From a virus, in IMG/VR virus record IMGVR_UViG_3300050821_007239, positions 1 to 26,196 of that record: a DNA stretch of 26,196 bases; one strand, written 5' to 3'. The position numbers and the translations under genes were made by a program. The notes beneath the pieces are model-generated. The model was not told the DNA's origin, searched no databases, and saw only the letters and a program-made list of their open reading frames with translations. Each line of letters starts with the position of its first letter. Position 1 is the stretch's first letter. This document shows positions 4,484 to 24,299 of this stretch, in pieces.

Positions 4484-7400
4484 TCAGGACCAGGTGCCGG
4501 TGGAACCGGACCGGTCGGTCTTCTGCAGGCCCTGAATGAGCGAGCAGTAGAACGGAGCGTTGACGACCAGCGCGCCCAGCATGAACATGCTGTAGCGGAA
4601 GCTGGCGTCGATCACGGGCCAGGAGATACTGCATATTGTTACTCGCCACCGAAGTGGCGGGGCTGGTCATTTCTGCCAGCCTCTCATGCTTTGCCATTGC
4701 ATGAGATCGGCCTGTCTCTTCCTCTGCGGCCGTAAGCACGTAATGCCTCGCATTTACGTCCGTCACACAGAGGGCGCACATACAGTCTCTACACGCCGGC
4801 AGGCATCGCCGACGCTCGGGATTCCCCGGTGATTTCCGGAGGGGTTCCCCGAACAGTGCGCATCCCTACGCAGATCACTCTGCGTAGGCCCCTAGTTACT
4901 CATAGTGAGGTAGTCCTGGACCGCCACGAACTCGACCACGTTGGAGACGTTGCTCCACGCGAACGGCATCGTGTAACTCATCAGGAGAGCCGAGCCCTGC
5001 GGCAGCCACGGGTGGACCACCACGCGGACGACGGACCTCGTCACGGGATTCTGGAATTCCGACACGGCAGCACCAAGGCGCACACCAGGCACTTCCGACT
5101 GCTCCACGAACAGGCGGTAGTTGGTGGCAGCCCCAAGCTGCACGATGTCATTGGACAGGCGGGCGACGTCGCCACCTTCGGCGATGATCTCCGCAGGGTC
5201 GGCGCGGTACGAACCATAGGTCCCCACGCCGGAGCCGGTGCCGTCCCACAGCTGCTGAAGGGCCGTGTTCAGCACGGAGGTCTTCAGAGTGTCACCAACC
5301 GACTGGGTAAAGTAACCGGCAGCCCAGTTCGCGGGATAGATGTTCGACCCGCCGGACGCGGCGTTGCCGGACAGGACCGAGAACAGCCCCTCCTGGTCGT
5401 TGGCCGAGGAGGTGCCGGTATCGGAAGCCGGGGCCTGCGTGCCCGTGGTGGGCAGTGCACCCTGGAGGGTGTAGTACAGGCCGCCGACGTTGTTGGCGTT
5501 GAGGTAGTAGGTGCCCGCGGAGGCCCCCGTGGTCGTGTAGATCTTGTAGAACATCGCGCCCTTGACGGGTGCGATCTGCACGTCCACAACCTGGCCCGAG
5601 GACCAGGCCACGGAAGCCGACGATCCGGCCGCGGTTTCCCCGAAGAAGGTGGCTGCGGTGACTTCCACGAAGACGTTCGTGGTGACACCGGTCAGCGCGG
5701 TTTCTCCGGTGTTTGCCGTCCTCGCGGTGAGGGTTGGCGCGGCCGGCGCGGAGAGGGCGATGGAAGTGGCGCCCAGATGGCTCGCCTCTTCGTTCAACAT
5801 GAACTCCTGCAGCAGCAAAAGATTTGCCAGTGCAGAAATGTCCTCGAACCCTTGCGGTTTGTTACTCCCGCCATTCCTTAGGCGGGGGTCATCTCATTTC
5901 TGGATGACTCTGCACCTTTTCCATCGGTGCAGGCCGGAGCACAACTTCACCTGCGGTTTGCTGTCCCCGTTGACATCGGGACAGCCCCCCGTGGCAGGTG
6001 CCACACGTTTGCTCTCTACGGAACCCTGATGCGAGGTTTCCACGGTATTCCCCGGCGAGCTCGGTGGGGTTCACCGTTACGGTGCGGTTTGCACCTGCGG
6101 ATCGCTCCGCAGGGGGGCCAGTTAAATAGACCAACCCTCGAACTGGCTGAGCCAGCTCAGGTTCTCGGACAATCCCCAGAAGCGGTACATGTTGTTACTC
6201 ACCAGCATGACCTGGCGGGGACGGTCGTTTCCGCCGTCCTCTCACGCTCTCGCGTAAGATCGGAACTATATCTTGATCTGGCTTTTACGATGGCGCGATC
6301 CCGGCCGCATAAAACCCGCCCTTGACGCGGCGGCCTCCTATTGGCCGGACCGGGATGCTCTGGTCGCGCATTGCTGACGTGATCATCCTGTTGCTGCACC
6401 CGAAGTGGATGCCTAGCTGCTTGATAGACATCCCGGCGCCGTACAGTTCGGCAAGTCCCGTCCAGTCGCGCTGGCTGCGGCGCTGCCGGTGGGTGTTGAC
6501 TTCAGGATGTTCGTGCAACCAGTCGCCGTAACACCTCTGCTTGCAGAAGACGTGGCCAAACGCGCGGTGTGACGGCGGCTTCCAGAACTCCGTGCCGCAC
6601 TGCTCGCAGGTGAACTTGACCCGCGTCCAGCGTGGGTGGAGCGGCCCGGCGAACCGTGTACGGATGTCGTAGACCGGATCGCCGTCAGGCGTCAGGCCGC
6701 AAGCGGCGACGACTTCCCTGACGCAAACGGCGGCGTCGTGGTTGATCTTGCTGCCGGTGAACCGGAATACCCGGTAACCGGCCGCAGTCAGCGCGGTGTC
6801 GCGTTCGGCGTCCTTAATCCTCTGGTCTCGCAGGGTGTGCTGCGCACCGTCGGCCTCAAGAACGATAGGGGCCTGATGGAGTTCTATATCCACCAAGTAG
6901 CGATCCAGCAGCAGGGACTGGGTTGTGAATCCGATCCCCGCCGCCATCAGGGCGTCGCATAGGCGCCGCTCGATAGGCGTATCCGTTGCCGGGCCTCGCA
7001 TGCATGGGAGCCGCTGCAGCAGCGCCTCCCGCGATTGCTGACGGAACTGGGGGGTGCGCTGCGATTCGGCCCGCGTTCTCAGCTTGATTCCCGCAGCTCG
7101 CAGGGTTGCCTGGATGGCTTCCGGCGCGCACTTGTACTCGATGCGGAGAGCGTTGACGCTCTCCCCCGCGTCGTACCGGGTGGTGATGTCAAGCTGTTCG
7201 GCGGGGGCGAAGGCGCGCATTGACCAGTTGCCCATTATTCAATTATGCCAGATCCCGCGTACATAGTCTCTGAACCTTGACCGTAGGCGCGTTGCCCTTA
7301 GGCCCTCGGCTGCTGATTGCCCCTGCTGCTCACTTCTCAAGCCGTCGCGCTCGCCCTTTCGGGCCACGCTGTGGCGTGAGCAGGTGATACGGGTGTTCCA

Positions 7401-8515
7401 GCAGTTCTCGCGGTTTTCACTCGCCCGTCACCGGGCGAGGCCCCTACCTAGTTTAGACAAGGGACGGTGAGGTCCACGGCATCCTGGGTTCCGGTGCCGG
7501 GGAGGTTGAGCGGCCAGTTCACTGCGGAACTGGTGCCGCCGATCGCGCCGCCGGACTGGACCAGTTCCGGGATGCCGAGGCGGACGAACTTGCCGCCGCT
7601 CGGGCCGGTCTGGGAGCCGGAGACGCCGGTGATGACCTTGCGCCTGCGCGACGCGCCCTGACCCGGGACTCGGGGGAGCTTGTTGCGCAGAGGGCTATAC
7701 ACCAAAATTGTTACTCGCCGCTTACTGCGGCGGGCCATCGCATTTCTGGATGGCTCTGCATGTCTCCATGCAGATCGGACTATTCCTTGGCCTGCGCGAG
7801 CAGGTCCCCCGTGCCTAGTCTCTGAACCTTCCGCTCGGCTTGCGCCAGGGCGGCTCGGCTGCTGATTGCCCCTGCTGCCTATTTCTCAGGCCGTCGCGGC
7901 CAGGCTTTCGCCTCACGCTGTGGCATAAGCAGGTAGGTGTGGGTGTCCCAGCAATTCTCGGGGGTTTGCGACTATGCCTCACGGCATAGTGCCCCATGAT
8001 CATCCAGGGTAGATGAGAGAGCTCGGGGCGACGAGATCGAAGGGCACGAACCCTGTCCCAAGCGGCGACGTGGTGGTAATGGACTTCAGGACGTCCTGGT
8101 CGACGCCAGGGACGTCCTTCAGGGCGGAGGCGAACTGGTTGGCCAGTTGCCGCAGCCCCTGGTTCTGTGGCGCGGCCGTCATAAAGGCGGCGAACTGCCC
8201 AGCGAATTCGGGCTTGAGGCCCTTGAGCACCTCGCGGGGCTCGTTGACGCCCTTGGAAATGGCGGCACGGAAAGCGTCCTCCGCCTTCATGGAACGGCGG
8301 AAGATCTGCTCGTCGTCGGACAGCGGCATATTGCCGCCGACCCGGGCATATCCTGCGCCCTTGACCAGCGTCGGCATTTTGTCCGACAGCATCAGGTCCG
8401 GGGCGCGGTAACGCTCGACGTCCGCATCGGCGTGCCAGCGGGTGTCGGTGCCCGTCCTTTCCAGGACGGGGGTGGCGGCGCTCCCGTAAGGGATTGCCAC
8501 TTCGTTTTCAGACAT
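4484..8515 (-). CDS. Major capsid protein, five exons split by four group I introns (633 aa after splicing)
   Basis: Builds the capsid shell, presumably with an HK97-type fold (inferred from context). Exons on the minus strand: 8515-8006, 7702-7460, 6187-6134, 5854-4908, 4631-4484. Their lengths sum to 1902 nt, one continuous frame. The joined junctions read naturally: SSLIYP|VYSPLRNKLPRVPG, DLTVP|YRFWGLSENLSW, SQFEG|QGFEDIS, VQDYL|SISWPVIDASF. An FN3/Ig-like insertion (roughly residues 300-405, starting near APAAPTLTAR) would project from the capsomer. AGGAGG precedes two adjacent ATGs (8518 and 8515); 8515 has the better spacing. Upstream come protease and scaffold genes, as usual for head modules. 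Without splicing, translation stops after IYPG, about 171 residues. Splice sites are inferred from intron structure and protein continuity. The last one splits a Leu codon and is the least certain. Confidence 0.9.
4632..4907 (-). ncRNA. Group I intron 4 of the capsid gene (276 nt, no ORF)
   Basis: P2 is a nine-pair hairpin CTACGCAGA/TCTGCGTAG. P3 is GCGCAC (4861-4856) with GUGCGC (4779-4774), compensatory to the P3 of intron 3. The P7 5' strand lies in GTAGAGACTGT (near 4782-4792) and the 3' strand in GAGACAGGCC (near 4711-4720); this P7 is the weakest of the four, with one mismatch. P9 hairpins follow and the end is GAGTAACAATATG. The 5' junction is placed after TACCU because it keeps a U at the exon end and restores VQDYLSISWP. 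An in-frame TAG follows within six codons. The 5' pairing with the exon is poorer than in the other introns, so this splice site deserves direct testing. Confidence 0.87.
5855..6133 (-). ncRNA. Group I intron 3 of the capsid gene (279 nt, no ORF)
   Basis: The 5' exon ends GAGGGU, which can pair with GCCCCC inside the intron as P1. P3 is CCGCAC (6087-6082) with GUGUGG (6006-6001). P7 is GAGCA (near 6010-6015) with UGCUC (near 5935-5942). P9-region hairpins follow, including the shared CAGAAATG loop, and the intron ends GAGTAACAAACCG. An in-frame TAA occurs at the fourth intron codon. The core resembles intron 4 more than introns 1 and 2 (compare GCCGGGGAATACCG with ACCGGGGAATCCCG), whereas the 3' hairpins resemble those of intron 1. 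Confidence 0.9.
6285..7235 (-). CDS. Intron-encoded homing endonuclease, DUF559/Vsr-like PD-(D/E)XK fold (316 aa)
   Basis: Predicted to cut intron-less capsid alleles so the intron is copied in by repair. Residues ~12-52 look like a helix-turn-helix. Residues ~85-178 form a DUF559/Vsr-type nuclease: TPIERRLCDAL, RYLVDIELHQAPIVLEADG with D116 and E127, H133, then RDTALTAAGYRVFRF. Residues 207-240 hold a CxxC...CxxxC zinc site (C210, C213, C231, C235). Residues ~256-295 form a second helix-turn-helix (MSIKQLGIHFGCSNRMITSA). The gene lies wholly within the P8 loop of intron 2 and its TAA is three bases from the closing P8 strand. No ribosome binding site precedes the ATG; CATAAT six bases upstream suggests a leaderless transcript. 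PD-(D/E)XK and Vsr-like homing enzymes are known but rarer than LAGLIDADG, HNH or GIY-YIG ones. Confidence 0.88.
   Translation of the reverse strand: MGNWSMRAFAPAEQLDITTRYDAGESVNALRIEYKCAPEAIQATLRAAGIKLRTRAESQRTPQFRQQSREALLQRLPCMRGPATDTPIERRLCDALMAAGIGFTTQSLLLDRYLVDIELHQAPIVLEADGAQHTLRDQRIKDAERDTALTAAGYRVFRFTGSKINHDAAVCVREVVAACGLTPDGDPVYDIRTRFAGPLHPRWTRVKFTCEQCGTEFWKPPSHRAFGHVFCKQRCYGDWLHEHPEVNTHRQRRSQRDWTGLAELYGAGMSIKQLGIHFGCSNRMITSAMRDQSIPVRPIGGRRVKGGFYAAGIAPS
7242..7247 (-). promoter_or_regulatory. Possible -10 box for leaderless expression of the endonuclease
   Basis: CATAAT lies exactly six bases before the endonuclease ATG and overlaps the end of the P8 5' strand. The same spacing is seen before several plus-strand cargo genes here. 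No convincing -35 box is visible, so support is limited to the position and the lack of a Shine-Dalgarno sequence. Confidence 0.35.
7703..8005 (-). ncRNA. Group I intron 1 of the capsid gene (303 nt, no ORF)
   Basis: Self-splicing ribozyme by structure. The 5' exon ends CUACCCU; GGGG in the intron can form P1 with a U-G pair at the splice site. P3 is CCCCCG (7964-7959) with CGGGGG (7811-7806). The conserved P4/J/P6 stretch reads GGGGCAATCAGCAGCC. P7 is GACTA within TTCAGAGACTA (near 7816-7826) with TAGTC (near 7777-7783), the latter preceded by an AAGGAA-type J8/7. P9, P9.1 and P9.2 hairpins follow, then GAGTAACAATTTTG with the terminal G. An in-frame TGA occurs at the second intron codon. 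It lacks an endonuclease, so it depends on past or trans-acting mobility. Very similar to intron 2. Confidence 0.93.
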
Positions 8516-8572: not shown

Positions 8573-11146
8573 CTAGGGCGCCGGGATAGTGCGAAGCACC
8601 TCCTCGGCGCGGGAACGGACCTTGGGGTCAGCCGACTGCGCTTGCATGCGGACGTAGTCGGTGAAAGCCTCGCGCTCGGCTTCGGCCTGTGCGGCTTTGG
8701 CGGCGCGGTGCTCGTCGATCAGGGAGCGCTTCTCCACGGGAGCTGCGGTCTCCGGCCGGCTCATTTGGCCTCGCACGGGGGCCTGCGCCGGGTCGGGCTG
8801 GGAGCCCAGTTCTTCGACCTGCTTGGTGAGGTCGGAGAGCTGGGAGTCGTATCGGGCGCCGATTTCGCGGAGTTGCTCGGCGACGACGGCCTGGACGGCA
8901 GCGCCGTCTCCGTGGGCTTTCATCGCGTCGAGGGCGGCGCGGGCGCCGGCTTCGGAGGCTTCTTTGAGGGCGGCGATCAGTTCTGCTTTGTTCGCCTTGC
9001 CTTTGCCCTTCTTTTTCTTGCCGAACGGGGGTGCCTGGTTGCCGCCGAACGCCTTGCCGTCTCCGTCGCTGTCACTGTCGGGGGTGGCGGTCTTGGCGAT
9101 CTGCACGAGGGCCGCGGCGAGGTCCGCGAGGGCCTGTGAATCGAGGGTGCCGTTTTCGGATTTGCCGACGGTGGGGATGCCTCCCATGGACATGGGGACC
9201 TTCTTTTCCGGTGTGCTGGTGGCGCCCATTCCCGGGCCGGTGGGGAGGGCGTGGCGGGCCGGGGCCATGGGGCAGCATCCGGCGAAGGTGGCCTGGATGT
9301 GGTCGTGGACGGAACGCATCGCGGCGGCGGCCATCATCTGCTCGGAGGTGGAGTAGTAGTCGTTGCCGGAGGATCCGGGCGGGTTAGGGTTGTTGGGCCC
9401 GTGGTCGCCCGGGGAGGGGGTTTCGTGGCCGGCGGTGAGGTTGCCGCGCTGGAACTGCTGCGGCTCGGGCACGTGGGACGCGGGGGGTGCCGGGGAGGCG
9501 GCTTGGGTGCCGGTGATGGCCGGGGAGTTCGCTTCGTGGCCTGCGGTGATCCAGGACCGGTGGAATGAGGACGGGCTGATCCCGGACTGGGGGCGGATCT
9601 TGGTGTCGGGGTAGGCGTCGGTGAACGCCTTGCGCAGGCCGGCGCGGGCGTCGGCGAGGGCGGCGGGGTCGGCGTCGTGGAGGCTCTCGGCGGCTTTGGC
9701 GATGGCGGTCAGCTTGGCGGCTTTCTTTGCCTTGCCCTCGGCCTGCTTCCAGGCGGCCTGCGCCTCGAACCAGACGCCGTCGACCGCGTCCATGACGGAC
9801 TTCAGTGCCGGGTAGGCCTCGATCACGTCGGCTTCGTCGTAGGCGGGGCATAGGGCGTCGTGCATCCGCTGCACCGAGTACGGGGCGGATTTGCCCGCGC
9901 GCTCGGCCATCACGCTGGTGTTCGCGTTCGCCGGGGGGATCGTGCCGGCTTCGGCGACGGGTGCGGGGATGTGGTCGGAGCTGCCGTCGCTGTCGCTGGG
10001 CAGGCTGGCGTCGTGTTCGAGGGATTCGACGTAGGAGCCGTCGGGCTCGCGGTGCGCCCCGGCGGGCTGTGTCGTGGCGGGGACGCCGCGCTTGACCTTG
10101 GCCAGGAGGGAGTCGGCGACTTCGCGGCTGATCAGTCCCGCCGCGGCGGCCTTCTCCACCGCCTCGGCCGGGTCCAGCGGGGGTGCCGCAGTGGTGGTAG
10201 TGGTTTCTTCGGCCATCTCAGGCTCGGCTGCCTTACTGGCACCCACCGGCTCCTTGTCCTCGGACAGGGGGTTGGACACGCCGAGTTCTTTGGCGCGGCG
10301 GGCGATGAGGCGCTTGGCGCCGGCGACGTTGCCGTGGCCGGAGCGGGCGAGGTGGGCGGCGTTGTCGAGGTCGCCGGCGTTTTCGATGGGGTAACTGCCG
10401 TCGTCCAGGGCGTGGCCTGCACTGGCGGCTTTGCGGCGCTGCGCGGTGGTGAACTTGCGCTTGTAGACGCTCTCCTCGGCCTTGATCACCTCGTCGCCCA
10501 GGGTGAGCTCCGGGGTTGCGTCCTCGGCGAGGTGTTTGGCGACCCAGTGGGCGCGGCCGGTTTCGGTGCCGTCGAGGCCTTCGGATTTGCCGAGTTCGCG
10601 CCACTTGTTCCAGTCGGCGCGGGCGCGGAGGACGTCGGTGCCGTCCATGGCGCCTTTGGTGGTGGGCTCGGCGGCGTCGTACTCGCGGCGGGCGGTCTCG
10701 TAAGCGCTGCGGGCGGCCTTGATCGCGGCCTTGGTCACGTGCGGCGGCTCCGGGGTGGCGGCTTTGGCGGCGCCAGCGTCGGCTTCGGCTCCCCCGTCGT
10801 CGTCGGTTTCGCCTTCGGCGCCCTCGTCCGCTTCGCCGTTGTCGCCGTCGGTGGAGTCTTTGGCGGCTTCCCCTTCGGCGGGTGGCGCCTGCCCCTTGGC
10901 GGTTTCGGTGCTTGGCCCGGCGGCGGCCTCCTCCGTCAGTTCGATGTCGGTTTCGGTCGCGGCGGCCGTCATCGCGGCACCCCCCGTGCTGTTGGCGATG
11001 GACTTGATGAGCAGGAATGGGGCCCCGTTCGCGGGTGCGAACACGCCGTCCATGCGGCTGGGGTCGAGCTGGATGATTTCGGTGATGCCGTCGGTGTCTT
11101 TGAGGGCCTCGTCTTCGTCTTCGCCGGCGAACAGGGGGTGGGTCAT
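8573..11146 (-). CDS. Large scaffold-type head protein with a DUF6582-like segment (857 aa)
   Basis: Probable internal scaffold for procapsid assembly, inferred from its place between the prohead protease and the capsid gene, its acidic, disordered composition and its helical C-terminus. Residues ~60-135 are Glu/Asp/Ala-rich. Residues ~137-290 form a conserved-looking block ending in YKRKFTTAQRRKAA and AGAKRLIARRAKELG, which I associate with DUF6582 of actinophages. The middle is Pro/Ser/Ala-rich low complexity. The last ~170 residues are helical (KAELIAALKEASEAGARAAL, LREIGARYDSQLSDLTKQVE, DEHRAAKAAQAEAEREAFTD), with a likely coiled coil that could contact the shell. It begins three bases after the protease stop. 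At 857 residues it is much longer than typical scaffolds, so part may have another role, for example retained internal head protein. Confidence 0.72.
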   Translation of the reverse strand: MTHPLFAGEDEDEALKDTDGITEIIQLDPSRMDGVFAPANGAPFLLIKSIANSTGGAAMTAAATETDIELTEEAAAGPSTETAKGQAPPAEGEAAKDSTDGDNGEADEGAEGETDDDGGAEADAGAAKAATPEPPHVTKAAIKAARSAYETARREYDAAEPTTKGAMDGTDVLRARADWNKWRELGKSEGLDGTETGRAHWVAKHLAEDATPELTLGDEVIKAEESVYKRKFTTAQRRKAASAGHALDDGSYPIENAGDLDNAAHLARSGHGNVAGAKRLIARRAKELGVSNPLSEDKEPVGASKAAEPEMAEETTTTTAAPPLDPAEAVEKAAAAGLISREVADSLLAKVKRGVPATTQPAGAHREPDGSYVESLEHDASLPSDSDGSSDHIPAPVAEAGTIPPANANTSVMAERAGKSAPYSVQRMHDALCPAYDEADVIEAYPALKSVMDAVDGVWFEAQAAWKQAEGKAKKAAKLTAIAKAAESLHDADPAALADARAGLRKAFTDAYPDTKIRPQSGISPSSFHRSWITAGHEANSPAITGTQAASPAPPASHVPEPQQFQRGNLTAGHETPSPGDHGPNNPNPPGSSGNDYYSTSEQMMAAAAMRSVHDHIQATFAGCCPMAPARHALPTGPGMGATSTPEKKVPMSMGGIPTVGKSENGTLDSQALADLAAALVQIAKTATPDSDSDGDGKAFGGNQAPPFGKKKKGKGKANKAELIAALKEASEAGARAALDAMKAHGDGAAVQAVVAEQLREIGARYDSQLSDLTKQVEELGSQPDPAQAPVRGQMSRPETAAPVEKRSLIDEHRAAKAAQAEAEREAFTDYVRMQAQSADPKVRSRAEEVLRTIPAP

Positions 11147-11149
11147 GGT

Positions 11150-11668
11150 CTACCTCCTGAGCTGGGCGAGGGATTCGGGTGTGGGGCGGCGGCGGGCGGC
11201 GCCGCCTTGCATGGACACACCGTTGATGTGGCCCTTCAGGACGAGCGGCCAGGCGTCTTTCGACCAGACGATGCCGACGAGCCAGTCCCCCGCTTTGACG
11301 ACCTGGGTGCCGCCTTTGACGGGTATGGACCAGTCGGGTCCGCGGTAGATGTAAGACTCGACGCAGGTGCCGGCGCCGTCGGTGCCGTCGGAATGCCACA
11401 GGCCGACTTCGGCGCCCTTGGTGAGATAGGACCAGGCGGCGTCTTCGAGGGCGTCGGGGCCGACGAAGTCCCGGTAGCCGTCCTGGGCTACTTTGACGTC
11501 GGCTTTCATGGCGGGGTAGGCGACGCACAGGGTGTAACGGCGTTCGGGCGCGGACTTGATGAGCACGCCGGCGAAGCCTGCGCCGTCCCAGGCGCTTTTG
11601 GCCGCCTCGGGGGCGTCCCCGTCGATGACGACTCGCTTGCCGGTGCCGTCTTCCACCGTGACGCGCAT
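11150..11668 (-). CDS. Prohead protease, XkdF-type serine protease (172 aa)
   Basis: Cleaves scaffold and possibly capsid N-terminus during head maturation. The sequence carries the XkdF-like pattern: LCVAYPAMKADVKVAQDGYRD, then GLWHSDG with probable catalytic H92, CVESYIY, GDWLVGIVWSKDAWPLVLKG, and INGVSMQGGA with probable nucleophile S152. Length is normal for the family. The ATG at 11668 follows GAGGGGG. It lies directly upstream of the scaffold gene, the standard order. The N-terminal ~40 residues (a short strand-rich domain ending GFAGVLIKSAPERR) are not usual for the catalytic core and may be a targeting segment. Confidence 0.85.
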   Translation of the reverse strand: MRVTVEDGTGKRVVIDGDAPEAAKSAWDGAGFAGVLIKSAPERRYTLCVAYPAMKADVKVAQDGYRDFVGPDALEDAAWSYLTKGAEVGLWHSDGTDGAGTCVESYIYRGPDWSIPVKGGTQVVKAGDWLVGIVWSKDAWPLVLKGHINGVSMQGGAARRRPTPESLAQLRR

Positions 11669-17352: not shown

Positions 17353-17574
17353 ATGCCACGCCGTTACACCCCTGCGGACGGCCTGATCGCTAGGGCGGGC
17401 CGGGCGCATGAGGATCCGAAAAAAATGACCGAGGCGGCGAACCGGGGTCGTCGCGCCAAGTTCACCGCCGAGGCGCTGCGGCGCAATCCTGACCTTTCAC
17501 CCGAAGAGGCTGAGCGCGCCGGCGCCCTGCTCCTGCGGGCCGAGATGGCACGACTGCGAAAGTTGAGACGCTAA
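17353..17574 (+). CDS. Small basic cargo protein (73 aa)
   Basis: Unknown. Basic and helical throughout (TEAANRGRRAKFTAEALRRN, DLSPEEAERAGALLLRAEMA, RLRKLRR), which suits nucleic-acid binding. No Shine-Dalgarno sequence; TACGCT (17340-17345) lies seven bases before the ATG, again a leaderless arrangement. The stop overlaps the convergent HAD gene by four bases. A single-gene insertion on the strand opposite to its neighbours. Confidence 0.6.
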   Translation: MPRRYTPADGLIARAGRAHEDPKKMTEAANRGRRAKFTAEALRRNPDLSPEEAERAGALLLRAEMARLRKLRR

Positions 17575-18341
17575 GGCTGCGGGCCCAGCGCCAGCCAGTA
17601 GCGGGCGGAGTCCCAGGTGGCGAACTCGCGGACGTGATCGCGGGCCAGGGTGGGCGTGTAGGGCCGCTCGGGGGTCCAGACACTGATGCCGGGCCGGGCG
17701 ACGGTAATCTGGACGGCAGGGTTATCGTCCAGGAGCACGGCGGCGTTATCTGACCCGAAGCAGCCGGCGAGATAAGCCGGTTTGTTTCCGTGCCCGACCG
17801 CGTGCACCTCGATCGCGGGTCCGCCCCAGTCCGCCAGCCAGTCTGCGGTGGCGGCCTGGACCGACGGGTCCCGTTCGGTGACCACTTGGCAGGGGAAGCC
17901 GGCGTCGTAGGCGTCGCGGAGGGTGTCGAGGGCGTGGAAGTCCGGGGCGAATGATGCCAGGAACGCCGGCTCGGACAGCAGCCCGGACACCCATCCTGCC
18001 TGCTGCTGCGGCAGCCGGGCGGTAATGAACGTGCCGGGGAAGAATGTCTGCGACAGTGGGGCGTAGGAGGTGCCGAACCGGGCGTTCAGTGCCCCGCAGA
18101 GGGCTTCGGCGGTGAAGGACAGGATGCCGTCGCAGTCCCAGATGAGCGCCGGGTGGCCGGTGAGCGCGTCCTCGCCGGGCGGGCAGCCGCCGTGCACCGC
18201 GGCGGCGAGGGTGCGCGGAATGTTCCACGCGGCCTCAGCGGCTGGCAGCCCGGATGCGGCGGCGGCGCGCTGCAGCCGCGGCAGGGCGATGTGATCGGGG
18301 TTGCCGTGGCGGTCCAGGGGCCGGAGGCATCCGCAATCCAA
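17571..18341 (-). CDS. HAD-superfamily phosphatase with an N-terminal Cys motif (256 aa)
   Basis: Predicted hydrolase of a phosphorylated small molecule, possibly a 5'-nucleotidase-like enzyme. The HAD motifs are all visible: IWDCDGIL with D69 (nucleophile) and D71, VVTERDPS with T155, HGNKPAYL with K187, and LLDDNPAV with D205/D206. The N-terminus reads CGCLRPLDRHGNPDHI, a Cys/His motif common in small actinophage proteins. The start is taken as TTG at 18341, with GGGGAGG 11 bases upstream. No ATG or GTG exists in this frame after the preceding stop; translation may start slightly upstream at a rare codon, because LDC at the start looks like the second half of a CLDCGC motif. It follows the 73-residue gene by 55 bases. 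Confidence 0.75.
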   Translation of the reverse strand: MDCGCLRPLDRHGNPDHIALPRLQRAAAASGLPAAEAAWNIPRTLAAAVHGGCPPGEDALTGHPALIWDCDGILSFTAEALCGALNARFGTSYAPLSQTFFPGTFITARLPQQQAGWVSGLLSEPAFLASFAPDFHALDTLRDAYDAGFPCQVVTERDPSVQAATADWLADWGGPAIEVHAVGHGNKPAYLAGCFGSDNAAVLLDDNPAVQITVARPGISVWTPERPYTPTLARDHVREFATWDSARYWLALGPQP

Positions 18342-18396: not shown

Positions 18397-18618
18397 TCAC
18401 CGGGCGCTCGCGTTCAGGACGGCCCGCAGCGCGACCACGTCGGGGAGTGGCAGGTTGTTTTTTGCGCCGAGATCCCGCAGTTTGGCGCAGAACGCTTCCA
18501 CGTCCGCGAGAGTCGCGCAGGGCCGCAGCCCGTCGATGCGCTGTGCCCGGGGGCCGCTGATCGCACAGGTGACCGTGATCGTGTGCGCTTCCTCAACCCG
18601 CGGCCCATGGGCGCTCAC
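18397..18618 (-). CDS. Small hypothetical protein after the MuF-like gene (73 aa)
   Basis: Unknown. GTG at 18618 overlaps the MuF-like stop (GTGA), which fixes the start. A beta strand (AHTITVTCAISGPRAQRIDG) is followed by helices (ATLADVEAFCAKLRDLGAKN, DVVALRAVLNAS). Small alpha/beta proteins here may be accessory head or connector proteins, but there is no direct evidence. Codon bias and coupling support a real gene. Confidence 0.6.
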   Translation of the reverse strand: MSAHGPRVEEAHTITVTCAISGPRAQRIDGLRPCATLADVEAFCAKLRDLGAKNNLPLPDVVALRAVLNASAR

Positions 18619-19472
18619 GCCGCCAGTTGCCGCGCTGCGGGCGCGGCCGCCGGTACGAGACTGCACCTGCAGCGAGGATGAGCTAGCGGCGTTTTGTCCC
18701 CCGACGGGAACTTCTGCCCTAGTCTGACTGGGCTTGCTGCCTGATTTGCCTTGCACCGGGCACACACCCTGCCGTCGTTCCTTGTCTGCCACCGGACCCA
18801 TTTGACGCCTGCGAGCTTGTACACCCAGTACGCCGCCCGGCCAGATGCCCACGTGGTCTCGGACTGGGTGACCAGCAGCGCGCTGATCAGGGAGCCGAGA
18901 ATCGCGCGGATCTGCTCCGCCAGCTCGTCGGCGGAGATGCCGCTGTCGAGCGCCGCAGTCAGGACGCGTTCCAGCCGGGACAGCCGGGTTTCCAGGATGC
19001 CGTCGATCCGGGAGCGGGCCTCGGCCAGCAGGTCCGCGAGGCCCTGCTGGGTGCCGCGGATCTCCCCGATGCCCAGGACGGTGATCGCGCTGGCCCAGCC
19101 TAGGCCCCATGCCGCACCCCACAAGGCGGTGAGCAGGCCCAGCAGGATCGCGGTGATGGCTGCGGCGACGCCCTGGGCGGCGAGGAACCGCCGGGCGGCG
19201 GTCTGCGGCGGCTGCGCGGGCTGCTGCTGTGATTGCTGCTGTGCGATGGCCCGGCGCCGCTTGCGGCGTTTGCGGCGGGCCTTCGCCACCTCACCGGGGG
19301 CGCTGGCGGGGATGGTGACGTCGGTGCCGTGCAAGGCCAGCCATGCGGCGGCGAGCCGGCCCGCGTTCACCGAGGCGGCGAGCTGGCGGGACAGCGACTG
19401 GGCGTATTCGGCGGCGAGTTGGGAGTCGGTGTACCAGCCGGGCCATGCTTGCTTGGCGACGGCGCGCGTCAT
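18615..19472 (-). CDS. MuF-type minor head protein (285 aa)
   Basis: Head morphogenesis protein that usually binds the portal and is carried in the capsid. The C-terminal region has the MuF signature: TTWASGRAAYWVYKLAG, WVRWQTRNDGRVCARCKANQ, LGQKFPSGDKTPLAHPRCRC, with Cys/His residues (C237, C240, H265, C268, C270) in the usual positions. A hydrophobic stretch at ~98-133 (FLAAQGVAAAITAILLGLLT) could touch membrane during DNA entry, which is less common. The ATG at 19472 follows GGAGG at four bases; an in-frame TTG 66 bases upstream has no ribosome binding site. Normally the MuF gene follows the portal directly; here a two-gene plus-strand cassette separates them. Confidence 0.83.
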   Translation of the reverse strand: MTRAVAKQAWPGWYTDSQLAAEYAQSLSRQLAASVNAGRLAAAWLALHGTDVTIPASAPGEVAKARRKRRKRRRAIAQQQSQQQPAQPPQTAARRFLAAQGVAAAITAILLGLLTALWGAAWGLGWASAITVLGIGEIRGTQQGLADLLAEARSRIDGILETRLSRLERVLTAALDSGISADELAEQIRAILGSLISALLVTQSETTWASGRAAYWVYKLAGVKWVRWQTRNDGRVCARCKANQAASPVRLGQKFPSGDKTPLAHPRCRCSLVPAAAPAARQLAA

Positions 19473-19501
19473 GCCGCCTCCATGCGCGGGAACCAACTCT
19501 G

Positions 19502-19507
19502 TACGAT
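19502..19507 (+). promoter_or_regulatory. -10-like box of the RNase H cassette
   Basis: TACGAT lies 49 bases before the ATG at 19557, giving a short leader rather than a leaderless start. No clear -35 box is seen. It falls within the upstream region of the divergent MuF-like gene. Confidence 0.35.
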
Positions 19508-19556
19508 GCCAGGAGGCCACCGCAGGCGTCTTTGCCAAAGGTCAAGGTGACGTGAA

Positions 19557-19763
19557 ATGACCCATCTCGTGAGCCCGTTCCACGCTCACCAGCATGAACC
19601 CGTCGGCGTGGACAATGAGATGGTCAAAACGACCGACTCGGACGGCAGCGTCACCGAGGCCCCGGTTACTTACGTTCTGCGCCGCTGCAAGTGCGGGGAC
19701 GTGGAAACCGGGGAGCTGGACGGCACCTGGACCCTCGCGCAGATCCGGCCTCCCGGCCGGTGA
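19557..19763 (+). CDS. Small Cys/His protein preceding the RNase H-like gene (68 aa)
   Basis: Not recognised. The sequence has HAHQHEPVGVD near the N-terminus and VTYVLRRCKCGDVETGELDG near the C-terminus, so His/Cys could form one zinc ribbon; the fold is mostly beta. AAGGTGA about seven bases before the ATG is a weak ribosome binding site. The TGA overlaps the GTG of the RNase H-like gene, so both are translated from one message. Confidence 0.62.
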   Translation: MTHLVSPFHAHQHEPVGVDNEMVKTTDSDGSVTEAPVTYVLRRCKCGDVETGELDGTWTLAQIRPPGR

Positions 19764-20416
19764 GTGCATCCCGGACACTTCTCGGTACCGCCCAGCAGGC
19801 CGAGCCTGTTCCTGGCCGGCCGTTAATGGCGGCGACCGACGCCAGTGTGAGGGGCCGTTCCGCCGGGATGGGGTTTGTGCGCACCGACGGGCGGTGGGGC
19901 GTCGCCCGGCGGGACTACTTCACCAGGATCACTTCGGCTCACACTGAACTGCTCGCTGTCGCCCTGCTCCTGGAGCGGGACCACGCCAGTCCCCCGCCGG
20001 CCGTGGTGTTTCTTGACAGCCAGCACGCCTGGCTTTACCTGACCGCCTGGCAAAGGGGTGAGACACGGCGAATGCCGGATGGCGTCACCCGGATGCCACG
20101 GGAATGGCATGCCGCGAAGCAGCCACGGGTGCCCACCCTCGTGCGCTTGGCTGCACGCGTCGCCACCTTGGCCGACGTCCGTTTCGAGTGGGTGCGTGGC
20201 CATGCGGGGCATCCGCTCAATGAAGCCGCCGACCGGCTTGCCTCGCTCGCGCTGAAAAACACGAGCAACCCGGCCGCCCGGCTGCGTGCCGGGCAAGTGA
20301 CAGCGGCGTTCCTGGCCCACTGGAACAGCATCCCGGCTAGTGGTGGCTTGCCTTCAGCCGTTCCCACTCGCCCAAAGCCCGGCGGGCGGCCTGCTGCACC
20401 TCGGGTGTCGTCTTGA
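19760..20416 (+). CDS. RNase H-like nuclease (218 aa)
   Basis: Predicted to cut RNA in RNA-DNA hybrids or act as a related nuclease. GTG at 19760 overlaps the preceding stop. RNase HI landmarks: MAATDASVRGRSAGMGFV with D27, HTELLAVALLLE with E63, VVFLDSQHAW with D86, and FEWVRGHAGHPLNEAADRLA with H148/H151 and D158. All four acidic residues of the active site are therefore present. About 40 C-terminal residues past the fold are Pro/Arg-rich. The last 80 bases lie antisense to the 3' end of the portal gene. It sits as cargo between portal and MuF-like genes, so it is probably not part of the virion. It may help phage DNA replication or clear R-loops, which is inference. Confidence 0.75.
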   Translation: MSASRTLLGTAQQAEPVPGRPLMAATDASVRGRSAGMGFVRTDGRWGVARRDYFTRITSAHTELLAVALLLERDHASPPPAVVFLDSQHAWLYLTAWQRGETRRMPDGVTRMPREWHAAKQPRVPTLVRLAARVATLADVRFEWVRGHAGHPLNEAADRLASLALKNTSNPAARLRAGQVTAAFLAHWNSIPASGGLPSAVPTRPKPGGRPAAPRVSS

Positions 20417-23400
20417 CCTTGCCGCCGAACGCGTGCCCGGCCGCCCATGCCCGGATCGCGTTGATCGCGGTGGCGATGGCCTGCTGCTCCCCCATCGACT
20501 GGTCTCGCATCAGCGCACGGGCGGTGTTTTGCACGTAGGCGGGCAGTTGCTGCATGTGGGCGACGTGCCGGTCCGGGGTGTGCCACAGGCCTTCACGGCC
20601 GAGCCGGTGGTGGACGGTGGACACCACCGGCGTTTGCGCTGATTTCCCCGCTTGCCCGTGTGTCTGGGAACTGTGCGTTTCCAGGGCGGCTTTGGCGTCT
20701 TTGCGGCCGATGAACCCGACGTAGCCCTTCACCGGCAGGCCGCGTTTGCGGTAGGCCAGTACCCGGTGGTGGCCGTCGATCACGTCGGCCTTTGATTCGC
20801 CCTCGGCCTGGATCATGATCACGGGCGCGACCTGGTTTGGGTCGTGCTTGATCTGCCGGGCGTAGTGCTTGACGTCGTCCGGCTCGTGGGAGGCGCGCCA
20901 AGTGTCTTGGCTGGCGTCGTTGATGCGGTCCTGCGGGATCTGCACCGGGCCGATCCACCGGGCCTCGCGCACCCATCCGAGGGCTTTCTCGGGGAAGCTG
21001 GCCCGCATGATCGACAGGATGTGCTCGGCTTCGACCGGGTTGGGGTCCGAAAGGTCGGCGGCGTCTTTGGCGAGGGGCTTGGAGGTGCGGGAGCGGCGCA
21101 CCGCCTGCCAGGACGCCTCGAACCCGGAGTGGAGTGGGTGGTCCTCGATTTGGCGGGCGGTCAGCCACGCCCATCCGGCGGTTTCGTGGCTGGTGGCGCC
21201 GTCGGTGGCCGGCTTGAACATGGCGGGCGCGTCGGTGACGACCGTGGTGAAGGACCAGTTTCCGTGCGAATCCTCGACCGTGTGGTGCGGGCTCAGGTTC
21301 GGCAGGACACCGAGCTCTTCGGTGGCTTCGCGGATCGCGCCGAGGAACGGCGGTTCGCCCTCGTACAGGGCACCGCCGGGGATGCCCCACGTGCCCGGCT
21401 CGGCGGAACCGGGCCCGCGGTTCTGCAGCAGGTACCGCCGTTTGCCGTCGGGGCCTTTAGTGCGGATCAGCAGGCCCGCGGCGCCGTACGCACCCCAGTG
21501 CTTGTGCCCTTGTGTGCAGGTGATGTGCCGTTCGCCGGACGATTTGAAGGCCCTGGCGCCGAGCGGGTGGCGGATCGCGTCGCCGCCGCGGTGCACGGTC
21601 AGGTGACCGAATGTCACTGTCCGTGGCGGCACCGGATCCGGCAGTGGGTCGCCGTCGTCCAGGTAGGCGAGGATGACGTGCGGGTGCCAGTCCGGGTGCT
21701 CGGAGGCGGACAGGTCTTCCAGGGCTGCGCGGAGCAGATCCCCTCCCGGCAGGGACACCTGGGCGAACACCGGCATCTTGCCGTCGCTGGATGAGCCTGC
21801 GGGGAATGACCCGATGCCGCCGACGGTGCCGGTCAGCGGCCCGGTGACAATCGCGGCCGCTTCGCGGGCCCGTTCGGCTGCGGCGCCGAACGCGTCGTCG
21901 TCCACGTCGGGCCCCAGGTAGCAGACCGTGATGTGGTGGTCGGTGACGCCGCCGGGCAGCGGCTCCAGGGCACCCTCGGGCAGGTCCAGGGAAATCATCC
22001 CGCTGCGCGGGTTCAGGGTGTACCCGGATACGGTCTTGGTGGCCAGGGCTTTGCGGGCCGAGGCGCACGCGTAGTCGGCGGACAGGCCCGCAGCCATGTC
22101 CTGCTCGATCGACGCGAGCACGTGCCCGGGCAGGTCCCGGACGGCCCACTGTGCCACGGTGCCGCCGCGTTTCAGGTGCGACTTCAGCAGCCCGAGCTCG
22201 CGCAGCGCATCACCGGGCTTGTCGGTCGCCGCCGCCCATGACGGTCCTTCCTCGTCGCTCCGGCTGAGTACCTCGCCAGCGATCGTGCGCCGCTGGGTGT
22301 CCAGCAGGGGCAGGCACGAGCCCTCCTCGAACTCGGCCAGGGTCTGCGCCGACAGGGCCGCCTCGATGGCCTTTTTGGTCGCGGCGCGCTGCTGTGCCTG
22401 CACTTTCGGCGACCGGGCGGCGACGGGGCCCAGGCCGACCTGCCGGGCGCCGGAATGCGCCGGGGTGCCGCGGGATCCGGTGCTGTTCTGGGTGCGGGAC
22501 ACCTGGGCGGCCTGGCCGCGGCGCTGCGCGCCGGACATCCGGTTCCGCGGCACCGTTGGCGGCGGTGAGCCCGGGCCGGACGCCGCCCCCGGGACGGTGA
22601 GATCCGCCGCAGCGGCCCCCGGCCGCGCAGCCGCCCTCCCGGGCCCGCCAGGACCAGGAGATCCCCCCAGCGGCTGCGCGGTCGCCTCGGTCACGCCAGT
22701 GAGAGGGACGAGGCCCCCCCATTGCGTGGCCCAACCGGGGTCTGAGGTGATGGGGAGGCCCCACGGGTCGCGGCCGAGCAGTTGCCTGCCCTCGTCAATG
22801 GACAGCAGGCCCGCGCCGATCTGCTCCACCAGTGCGGTAGTCAGCTCGGCGATGTTTTCGTCTTCGTCCAGTCCCTCCCATTTGAACTCCATATCGAATT
22901 GGCCGCATACGTCCTGCAGGAGACGGTCGAAAATGGCGGCCTTGAGGAACAGGAGCAGGGGGACGGTGGACTTGCGCTGGCGAATGTCCACCCGGGCACC
23001 GACCGTTTGCCGGGCGGTCCCGGACGAGGCGGCGGCGGCGGAGAGCTGCGGGATTATGCCCAACTCGAAAGGCTGCACGTCGAAGGCCATGCATGTCTGG
23101 ATCATCACCAGCGTGTCGAAGTCGTCGGCGAGTGGCCCCGGCTTCATTGGATCCGCTTTGGAACCCGACGGCAGGACGATGATCTTATGCTTCCATGCCT
23201 GGTCGCCCGAAAGGGCGTTCAAGGCGTCCTGAAGCTCGCGGATCTGCGACGGGGTCAGGGACGAGTCCCCGGCGGAGACGATGAGCCCGGGGATGGATCC
23301 TTCGGAGAAGTACTGCTGCTGGTACTGCTGCTTGTTGATGCCCGTCATGATCGGCATCAGGGCCTTTTCGACAAAGCTCATCCCGTATACGGTCCACGAC

Positions 23401-24299
23401 CGGCGGGTGAACGGCAGGTACAGCAACTGGTCGCCGGCGTACTCGCGGAGCAGCCCGGTCGTGTCGCCGGACGATTCGGTGATCAGCGTCATCAGGTCGA
23501 CGCGGGGCACGCCCCACTCGAACTGCTGGTAGCAGACGTTCGGCGGCTGCGGTTTCCCGCCACGGATGTCCACCAGGGGCTTGATCAGGCTGCCGTCGAT
23601 CAGGTCCAGGCCGGCGACGCTGCTGCCGAACAGGCCACCGCGCTTCGCCCGGGCCGGGTGCGGGAACACCGCCAGAGCGTCGGTGACGAAAAAGTCCTCC
23701 AGGGCCGCATTCAGCCACGAGGAAAAGTCGGCGTAGTCAGGGTCGGGCTTGCGGAAAAACTTGACCGCCTTCGCCTGCCGCTCCGCGAAATCCGCTGCGG
23801 CCCGATGGTCGCCGCGCATCGCCTTGGCAGCATGGCGGGTGGGGCCGATGTCCCAGCCGACGCCGCGGATCTCTTCCTTCCGCAACTCGATGCACTGGCG
23901 GGCCACCGAATACAAGTCGGCGAGGGTGCGCAGCGTGTTGAAGTCGGCGAGCTTCCCCCAGCCTTCGGTGCCGGGCATCCCGAGGTTGAGGTCCCATGAA
24001 ATGGGATACTCTTTGCGCCGCGGGAAGGGGCGTTCCTCCCCCGGTTCGGGGATGTCGATCGGGACCGGCTGAATCGGCGCCGACGGGCCGAACATGCCCG
24101 ACAGGAACGTGAACCAGTCCCGCGGCAGCGCGCCGCTCGTGCCGTAGGCGTGGCCGCCGTCCCACTGGTTGTAGGACGCGACCAGCGGGGAGGGGCCCGG
24201 GGAAATGTAGGGCGCGGGGCCGCTGGCGAAACCGCCCGTGGACGGGGCCGGGGCGACGGCTTTGAGGGCGCGCTCAATCACACGGGGGTCGGCCGCCAC
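20337..24299 (-). CDS. Portal protein fused to 2H-phosphoesterase, NUDIX and ParB-like domains (1320 aa)
   Basis: Residues ~95-530 form the portal, the dodecameric DNA channel: WDLNLGMPGTEGWGKLADF, CIELRKEEIRGVGWDIG, YLPFTRRSWTVYGMSFVEKA, PFELGIIPQLSAAAASSGTA, LLSIDEGRQLLGRDPWG. After a Pro/Gly linker (540-640), residues ~757-905 resemble a 2H phosphoesterase (HITVCYLG at 789, HPHVILAYLDD at 872). Residues ~930-1070 contain a complete NUDIX box, GX5EX7REX2EEXG, from G976 to G997. Residues ~1110-1205 look ParB-like (DVIDGHHRVLAYRKRG). The C-terminal ~90 residues are helical (LPAYVQNTARALMRDQ). GTG at 24299 follows GGGGTGA. Ordinary portals have about 400-700 residues, so this is a large fusion. 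The frame is open throughout with no sign of error. Portal assignment is solid; whether the enzymes are active is inferred from motifs. Confidence 0.85.
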   Translation of the reverse strand: MAADPRVIERALKAVAPAPSTGGFASGPAPYISPGPSPLVASYNQWDGGHAYGTSGALPRDWFTFLSGMFGPSAPIQPVPIDIPEPGEERPFPRRKEYPISWDLNLGMPGTEGWGKLADFNTLRTLADLYSVARQCIELRKEEIRGVGWDIGPTRHAAKAMRGDHRAAADFAERQAKAVKFFRKPDPDYADFSSWLNAALEDFFVTDALAVFPHPARAKRGGLFGSSVAGLDLIDGSLIKPLVDIRGGKPQPPNVCYQQFEWGVPRVDLMTLITESSGDTTGLLREYAGDQLLYLPFTRRSWTVYGMSFVEKALMPIMTGINKQQYQQQYFSEGSIPGLIVSAGDSSLTPSQIRELQDALNALSGDQAWKHKIIVLPSGSKADPMKPGPLADDFDTLVMIQTCMAFDVQPFELGIIPQLSAAAASSGTARQTVGARVDIRQRKSTVPLLLFLKAAIFDRLLQDVCGQFDMEFKWEGLDEDENIAELTTALVEQIGAGLLSIDEGRQLLGRDPWGLPITSDPGWATQWGGLVPLTGVTEATAQPLGGSPGPGGPGRAAARPGAAAADLTVPGAASGPGSPPPTVPRNRMSGAQRRGQAAQVSRTQNSTGSRGTPAHSGARQVGLGPVAARSPKVQAQQRAATKKAIEAALSAQTLAEFEEGSCLPLLDTQRRTIAGEVLSRSDEEGPSWAAATDKPGDALRELGLLKSHLKRGGTVAQWAVRDLPGHVLASIEQDMAAGLSADYACASARKALATKTVSGYTLNPRSGMISLDLPEGALEPLPGGVTDHHITVCYLGPDVDDDAFGAAAERAREAAAIVTGPLTGTVGGIGSFPAGSSSDGKMPVFAQVSLPGGDLLRAALEDLSASEHPDWHPHVILAYLDDGDPLPDPVPPRTVTFGHLTVHRGGDAIRHPLGARAFKSSGERHITCTQGHKHWGAYGAAGLLIRTKGPDGKRRYLLQNRGPGSAEPGTWGIPGGALYEGEPPFLGAIREATEELGVLPNLSPHHTVEDSHGNWSFTTVVTDAPAMFKPATDGATSHETAGWAWLTARQIEDHPLHSGFEASWQAVRRSRTSKPLAKDAADLSDPNPVEAEHILSIMRASFPEKALGWVREARWIGPVQIPQDRINDASQDTWRASHEPDDVKHYARQIKHDPNQVAPVIMIQAEGESKADVIDGHHRVLAYRKRGLPVKGYVGFIGRKDAKAALETHSSQTHGQAGKSAQTPVVSTVHHRLGREGLWHTPDRHVAHMQQLPAYVQNTARALMRDQSMGEQQAIATAINAIRAWAAGHAFGGKVKTTPEVQQAARRALGEWERLKASHH

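Follow-up and report, generated by a model that had tools for sequence, protein, structure and literature searches.

A phage portal protein extended by 2H phosphoesterase, NUDIX and ParB/sulfiredoxin-fold modules, from a clade of soil phages with shuffled portal modules

Our sequence comparisons show that, in a clade of soil phages, the portal gene is a recombination platform on which modules are gained, lost, reordered and exchanged. In the window, i.e., the whole stretch of 26,196 nucleotides analysed here (IMG/VR record IMGVR_UViG_3300050821_007239), the ORF at 20337..24299 on the minus strand (1320 codons, GTG start) encodes a polyvalent portal in which a virion domain is joined to several effector-type enzymes in a phage late context. 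From the N to the C terminus, its domains are a portal, a Pro/Gly-rich linker, a 2H phosphoesterase, a NUDIX domain, a ParB/sulfiredoxin-fold domain and a helical C-terminal domain. We give a probability of about one half to the reading in which the extension would be head-packed cargo that is delivered with the DNA and acts on host nucleotides or RNA ends; the virion association of the modules is the likeliest reading. The original prediction had described a portal fused to three enzyme-like domains, possibly a counter-defence or DNA-processing device. Its domains, the fusion and, as the likeliest reading, the virion association are supported, while the strand, the nearest relatives of the 2H domain and the DNA-processing role of the ParB-like domain required revision.

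The minus-strand frame is uninterrupted, whereas the plus strand across 20337-24299 is interrupted by stops; thus, the predicted single open frame of 1320 codons is confirmed, with its strand corrected to minus. The assignment of the portal, 2H, NUDIX and ParB-like domains agrees with Pfam, PHROGs, predicted folds and motifs. That an assembly or frame error joined separate genes is a practically negligible explanation. Fused forms are present in many independent metagenome assemblies, L118, the nearest relative, aligns collinearly with the window along the entire length with the exception of one cassette, and the cultured Arthrobacter phages Mufasa8 and Sonali encode portal-NUDIX-MuF as one ORF; nothing was found in favour of such an error. 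Since many independent contigs share the fusion, it is due neither to chance nor to misassembly.

The portal core (residues 95-530; 22710..24017, minus strand) matches the Phage_portal family (Pfam PF04860, E 6.6e-14 over residues 279-509; phrog_2662, 1.3e-41) and is 27-67% identical to other portals. It is of the HK97/SPP1 type, with its Phage_portal domain lying within a head gene block that includes MuF, XkdF protease and SU10-like capsid protein neighbours. This local block, which comprises the portal, MuF, an XkdF-type protease, a scaffold-like protein and the capsid protein, is on the minus strand throughout. The window encodes the MuF-like minor head protein in a gene of its own (18615..19538; Pfam PF04233, 4.5e-7), while MuF is fused in 86 of the 108 related portals described below. 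The XkdF-type head maturation protease (11150..11668; Pfam Peptidase_S78_2, 8e-14) is a candidate processor of the portal linker, and the scaffold-like protein (8573..11146) is encoded between the protease and capsid genes. Between the portal and MuF genes, an RNase H gene is present on the plus strand (19691-20416; Pfam 9e-12), sharing 80 bases with the portal 3′ end. A different opposite-strand ORF occupies the same gap in L042, and the gap may thus be an insertion hot spot.

The 2H phosphoesterase module (residues 765-914; 21558..22007, minus strand) was recognized by our own HMM, Pfam, predicted fold and motifs, with HITV (H789) as motif 1 and HVIL (H874, with Ile876 in place of Thr) as motif 2. 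Its Pfam match is below the curated cut-off on the full ORF (0.0048) and has a value of 1.8e-4 for the domain alone. The sole solved-structure match of the 2H sequence profile, superoxide reductase, was a chance hit, and a fold search was used instead. The structure model, built from nine sequences (pLDDT 87.7), has the two-lobed 2H fold when compared with solved structures: the 2′,3′-cyclic phosphodiesterase of D. radiodurans (drCPDase; Z 15.3, rmsd 3.8, 151 residues), Usb1 (Z 13.9), E. coli LigT (Z 13.8, rmsd 2.5) and phage Acb1 (Z 10.5, rmsd 3.5, 125 residues). Acb1, an anti-CBASS nuclease, thus has the same 2H fold, but the bacterial 2′,3′-CPDases and LigT (Z 13.8-15.3) are structurally nearer, and Acb1 is a standalone protein, unlike the portal-fused 2H described here.

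Motif 1 reads HxT in 74 of 76 2H copies, as does motif 2 in 73 of 75, and the module family has two H-x-[T/S]-x motifs, which the window copy (HITV and HVIL) does not. The window has the only HxI copy at motif 2, residue 876 being Ile (ATC) instead of the ACC codon of L118; a sequencing error behind this codon is possible. In L185 and L192, one of the two 2H copies is without the motif-1 Thr. The catalytic residues, whose loss among relatives would have refuted the original prediction, are thus conserved in the family, but the missing motif-2 Thr makes the activity of the window's own 2H module doubtful, and this module may be impaired and is probably weak or binding-only.

The NUDIX domain (residues 940-1055; 21135..21482, minus strand) has a Pfam match (PF00293) at residues 951-1055 with an E-value of 3.9e-11 and a score of 43.5 bits, against a curated cut-off of 21.1. 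The NUDIX box, GX5EX7REUXEEXGU, is complete at residues 976-998, as predicted, which identifies the domain as a NUDIX hydrolase. Its nearest solved structure is RenU (6uuf, 3.3e-21), and the clade holds several distinct NUDIX types. Both this domain and the ParB-like domain that follows it look intact.

The ParB/sulfiredoxin-fold domain (residues 1084-1199, with DGHHR at 1175-1179; 20703..21050, minus strand) was detected by our own HMM, its motif, the sequence profile and the predicted fold, and PHROGs gave a ParB-like match at residues 1139-1186 (2.9e-4). A model built from 48 sequences (pLDDT 92.3) superimposes on sulfiredoxin (Z 9.7, rmsd 1.9, 87 residues) and on the ParB-like PadC (Z 7.9). 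According to the sequence profile, free serine kinase (SerK, 4.1e-5) and SbnI (6.2e-4) are the closest proteins of solved structure, with Noc and ParB ranking behind them. The D-G-x-H-R motif is invariant across the 48 domains; together, the alpha+beta fold and the conserved Arg place the domain in the ParB/sulfiredoxin superfamily. It differs from the ParB partition CTPases in that DGHHR replaces the GxRR-type motif and no HTH match was obtained; no Pfam match of any kind, HTH or other, was found in residues 1075-1320. Based on these data, this is a ParB/Srx-fold domain, probably nucleotide-binding, and not a partition ParB. The predicted fold and GHHR motif are thus retained, but with sulfiredoxin as the best fold match and free serine kinase and SbnI as the best sequence matches, the proposed DNA-processing role is not implied. 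The helical C-terminal module (residues 1217-1320; 20340..20651, minus strand) is 77-78% identical in L007 and L017, belongs to no Pfam family and has no match among INPHARED phages.

Relatives were recovered with portal alignments, a first one, which detected 33 loci, and a clade alignment, which yielded 80 in viral contigs; single-sequence patterns over viral contigs were too strict and gave zero matches. In bacterial genomes, the clade alignment matched Arthrobacter terricola, one metagenome-assembled proteobacterium and nothing else, and the host group of these phages is probably actinobacterial. Searching with the 2H module gave 80 loci. The final set comprised 75 distinct 2H ORFs, 43 of them also containing a portal. 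The related portal ORFs that are complete number 108, measure 618-1989 aa and show 26 module orders, as read with profiles built here, whose seeds were partly confirmed by Pfam. NUDIX is present in 44 of these ORFs, 2H in 37, the ParB-like domain in 57 and MuF in 86, and the extension after the portal reaches 1434 aa at most. All three enzymes occur together in only four of the 108, each time in a different order: 2H-NUDIX-ParB in the window, NUDIX-ParB-2H in L043, MuF-2H-NUDIX-ParB in L110 and NUDIX-ParB-2H-MuF in L158. In L086 (10306-12957), the portal extension instead includes an Arr-type (rifampin) ADP-ribosyltransferase domain (8.6e-9).

The modules are also found apart from the portal. 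ParB and 2H are encoded in ORFs adjoining a portal-MuF ORF in L080 and L116, MuF and NUDIX in following ORFs in L064 and L086, and MuF is a separate gene in L042, L043 and L118, as in the window. The A. terricola locus (L040) has a 618-aa portal without modules and a separate MuF, indicating that the modules are dispensable for the portal fold. Additionally, L148, L152, L155 and L170 encode a ParB-like and a 2H domain together as a protein of their own of 320-507 aa, probably the same cassette pair in standalone form. Long insertions split the portal match in L136, L158, L165 and L123, and the portal part of L108 (2597-7843) has an intein-like insert with Hint and LAGLIDADG matches, both below cut-off.

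The clearest case of module gain or loss is the NUDIX cassette. In the alignment of the window with L118, residues 919-1077 (21069..21545, minus strand) are missing from L118 as a block, and the remainder is collinear. Module identity is decoupled from portal identity, which shows that modules are exchanged: the window and L042 are 67% identical in the portal and 37% in NUDIX, L017 and L092 are 90% identical in the portal and 55% in ParB, and the window and L017 are 51% identical in the portal and 78% in the C-terminal module. By eye, the low-complexity linker (residues 510-660) of the window looks more similar to that of L118 than the portal core is (67%), which suggests that recombination has taken place across it. 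For the modules, dN was lower than dS in every measured pair that was sufficiently diverged, some pairs being saturated; by this codon-based measure, the modules are shown to be under purifying selection, with their catalytic motifs kept in relatives. The modules would thus represent shuffled cargo rather than fixed portal architecture, and the independence from order suggests cargo modules that work independently.

The Pro/Gly-rich linker of the window contains a TPAH motif (residues 612-615; 22455..22466, minus strand), an instance of a clade-wide short linear motif, [ST]P[AG]H. Of 71 linkers, 52 contain TPxH, where shuffling the linkers predicts 2.05, and most of the others read SPGH or similar; among 46 homologues of the scaffold-like protein, 15 have [ST]P[AGS]H, against 2.5 expected; because the motif-bearing sequences are related and non-independent, these counts overstate the significance. 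In the clade portal polypeptides, 64 of 66 occurrences of [STN]P[AGS]H are located within 170 residues after the portal. The strict motif was not found in the window's own scaffold-like protein, nor was [ST]P[AGS]H found in any of the 39 capsid proteins checked. We consider [ST]P[AG]H a candidate processing site or docking site. Its absence from the capsid proteins, which would normally be cut by the same protease as well, means that it could be a docking site instead of a cleavage site. In phage SPN3US, the portal is cut by the prohead protease (PMC10052503), but this removes an N-terminal propeptide, in contrast to the C-terminal extension considered here.

The C terminus of portal proteins faces the head interior. 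The modules would therefore lie on the head-interior side and, with twelve portal subunits, about twelve copies of each could be brought to the vertex as the prohead assembles. A chain that stays bound to the portal ring is not ejectable intact through the channel, so delivery would require release. Release could take place within the prohead, close to the [ST]P[AG]H motif that the linker and the scaffold-like protein have in common, with the XkdF-type protease as a plausible agent; alternatively, the extension could be kept tethered by the flexible linker. Freed modules would be ejected together with the DNA and would work, during the first minutes after entry, on nucleotide signals, ADP-ribose-type metabolites or 2′,3′-cyclic RNA ends, countering host defence or host RNA damage. 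We count as favouring delivered cargo the 26 module orders and their independence, the NUDIX cassette that is wholly present in the window and wholly absent from L118, the decoupling of module from portal identity, the presence of MuF, the classical carrier of injected effectors, within the same chain in most portals, the conserved catalytic motifs and low dN, the module-free A. terricola portal and the module genes adjoining the portal in L080, L116, L086 and L064, the motif shared by linker and scaffold, the Arr-type domain of L086, and the prohead-protease precedents of the SPN3US portal and P1 DarA. Against it count the need for a cut, the lack of the motif in capsid proteins, the N-terminal position of the SPN3US propeptide, the greater structural nearness of the 2H to LigT, Usb1 and CPDase than to Acb1, and the missing motif-2 Thr in the window. 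More tentatively, the portal might be a general, evolvable effector rack whose C-terminal linker takes up interchangeable enzyme cassettes, and from which a head protease or docking partner recognizing [ST]P[AG]H frees a defined dose of around twelve copies per cassette for ejection, a modular route distinct from MuF effectors and from free internal proteins.

Action in the cell that produces the virions, rather than in the next host, is an unlikely but serious alternative. From the unassembled or prohead-bound portal, NUDIX would clean nucleotide pools late in infection, 2H and the ParB-like domain would process nucleotides or RNA ends while packaging proceeds, and the fusion would only couple their dose to late expression. 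The separate late genes for the same domains beside the portal in L080, L116, L086 and L064 are in line with this and indicate that portal attachment is not obligatory; nevertheless, fusions to the portal or portal-MuF recur across many architectures, with MuF within the same chain, which argues against this alternative. We regard as rather improbable that the extension is mainly structural (a crown extension, a spacer or a DNA-organizing mass in the head), its enzyme folds being kept for binding and some of them inactive. The defective motifs of the window, L185 and L192 and the large total size of the extensions would suit a structural role, but nearly all other copies keep their catalytic motifs, the A. 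terricola portal has no extension at all, and the length range of 618-1989 aa, with varying content and order, would hardly be tolerable for a structural element. Very unlikely, finally, is that the modules degrade signals or DNA of superinfecting or resident elements instead of countering host defence at entry. Osa-type ParB-like proteins have been proposed to degrade rival DNA (PMC5512222), yet no associated exclusion genes were seen in the window, and the location in the head gene block favours a virion function.

The delivered-cargo reading extends earlier proposals. Iyer et al. (2017) described polyvalent proteins of phages and conjugative elements, including 2H domains fused to portal or MuF, and suggested that portal- or MuF-fused 2H degrades host defence nucleotides (PMC5512222). 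These are likewise multidomain late proteins that combine a head-protein domain with 2H, ParB/Srx-fold, ART and other enzymes, for which head packaging and injection were predicted and counter-signalling was proposed. A 2022 NAD+-ADPr survey reported Nudix domains fused to MuF, portal or capsid protease, and so covalently attached to the portal and MuF as in our clade, proposed their packaging and delivery, and assigned most phage Nudix domains to the T4-NudE and NadM types (PMC9503650); the window NUDIX, by contrast, is closest to RenU among solved structures, and the clade types are diverse. Since portal-2H and portal-NUDIX fusions are already in print, the window protein is a variant of polyvalent proteins. 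A literature search combining 2H phosphodiesterase, Acb1, portal and virion returned nothing on portal-borne 2H beyond these two surveys of polyvalent proteins. What is new here is the extent of module shuffling on the portal, with 26 orders, up to three enzymes carried by one portal itself, and the conserved linker motif.

T4 Alt and the P1 Dar proteins are packed in the head and ejected with the DNA (PMC5512222), DarA being cut by the prohead protease (PMC12810830); they resemble the proposed cargo in packing and ejection, but are separate proteins that are not attached to the portal. Gp3 of Mufasa8 and Sonali, the portal-NUDIX-MuF protein mentioned above, has no 2H or ParB-like module, its portal is only about 26-27% identical, and the linker motif was not found in it. 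These cultured Arthrobacter phages, together with a precise linker site, make the older proposal of injected portal-fused enzymes directly testable. If delivery is confirmed, an essential structural protein would double as a fixed-copy loading platform for counter-defence or host-takeover enzymes, and the shuffled cassettes would constitute a list of what soil phages need delivered immediately on entry.

Two further genes of the window deserve mention. A polynucleotide kinase/HAD phosphatase-like gene (17571-18341, minus strand; phrog_415, 2.3e-9) adjoins MuF and is kept in L042, L043 and others; its combination with 2H would fit RNA end repair. The major capsid gene (4487-8446, minus strand) is divided into five exons relative to its continuous homologue in L047. 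Its first insert (7756-8015) is a group I intron with a score of 55.2 bits, above the Rfam cut-off, and a weak group I match was obtained for the second (about 6197-7459), which contains a DUF559-type endonuclease gene (6285-7235). The 3′ ends of the remaining inserts, 5855-6133 and 4634-4897, resemble that of the first; four introns within one capsid gene would be unusual.
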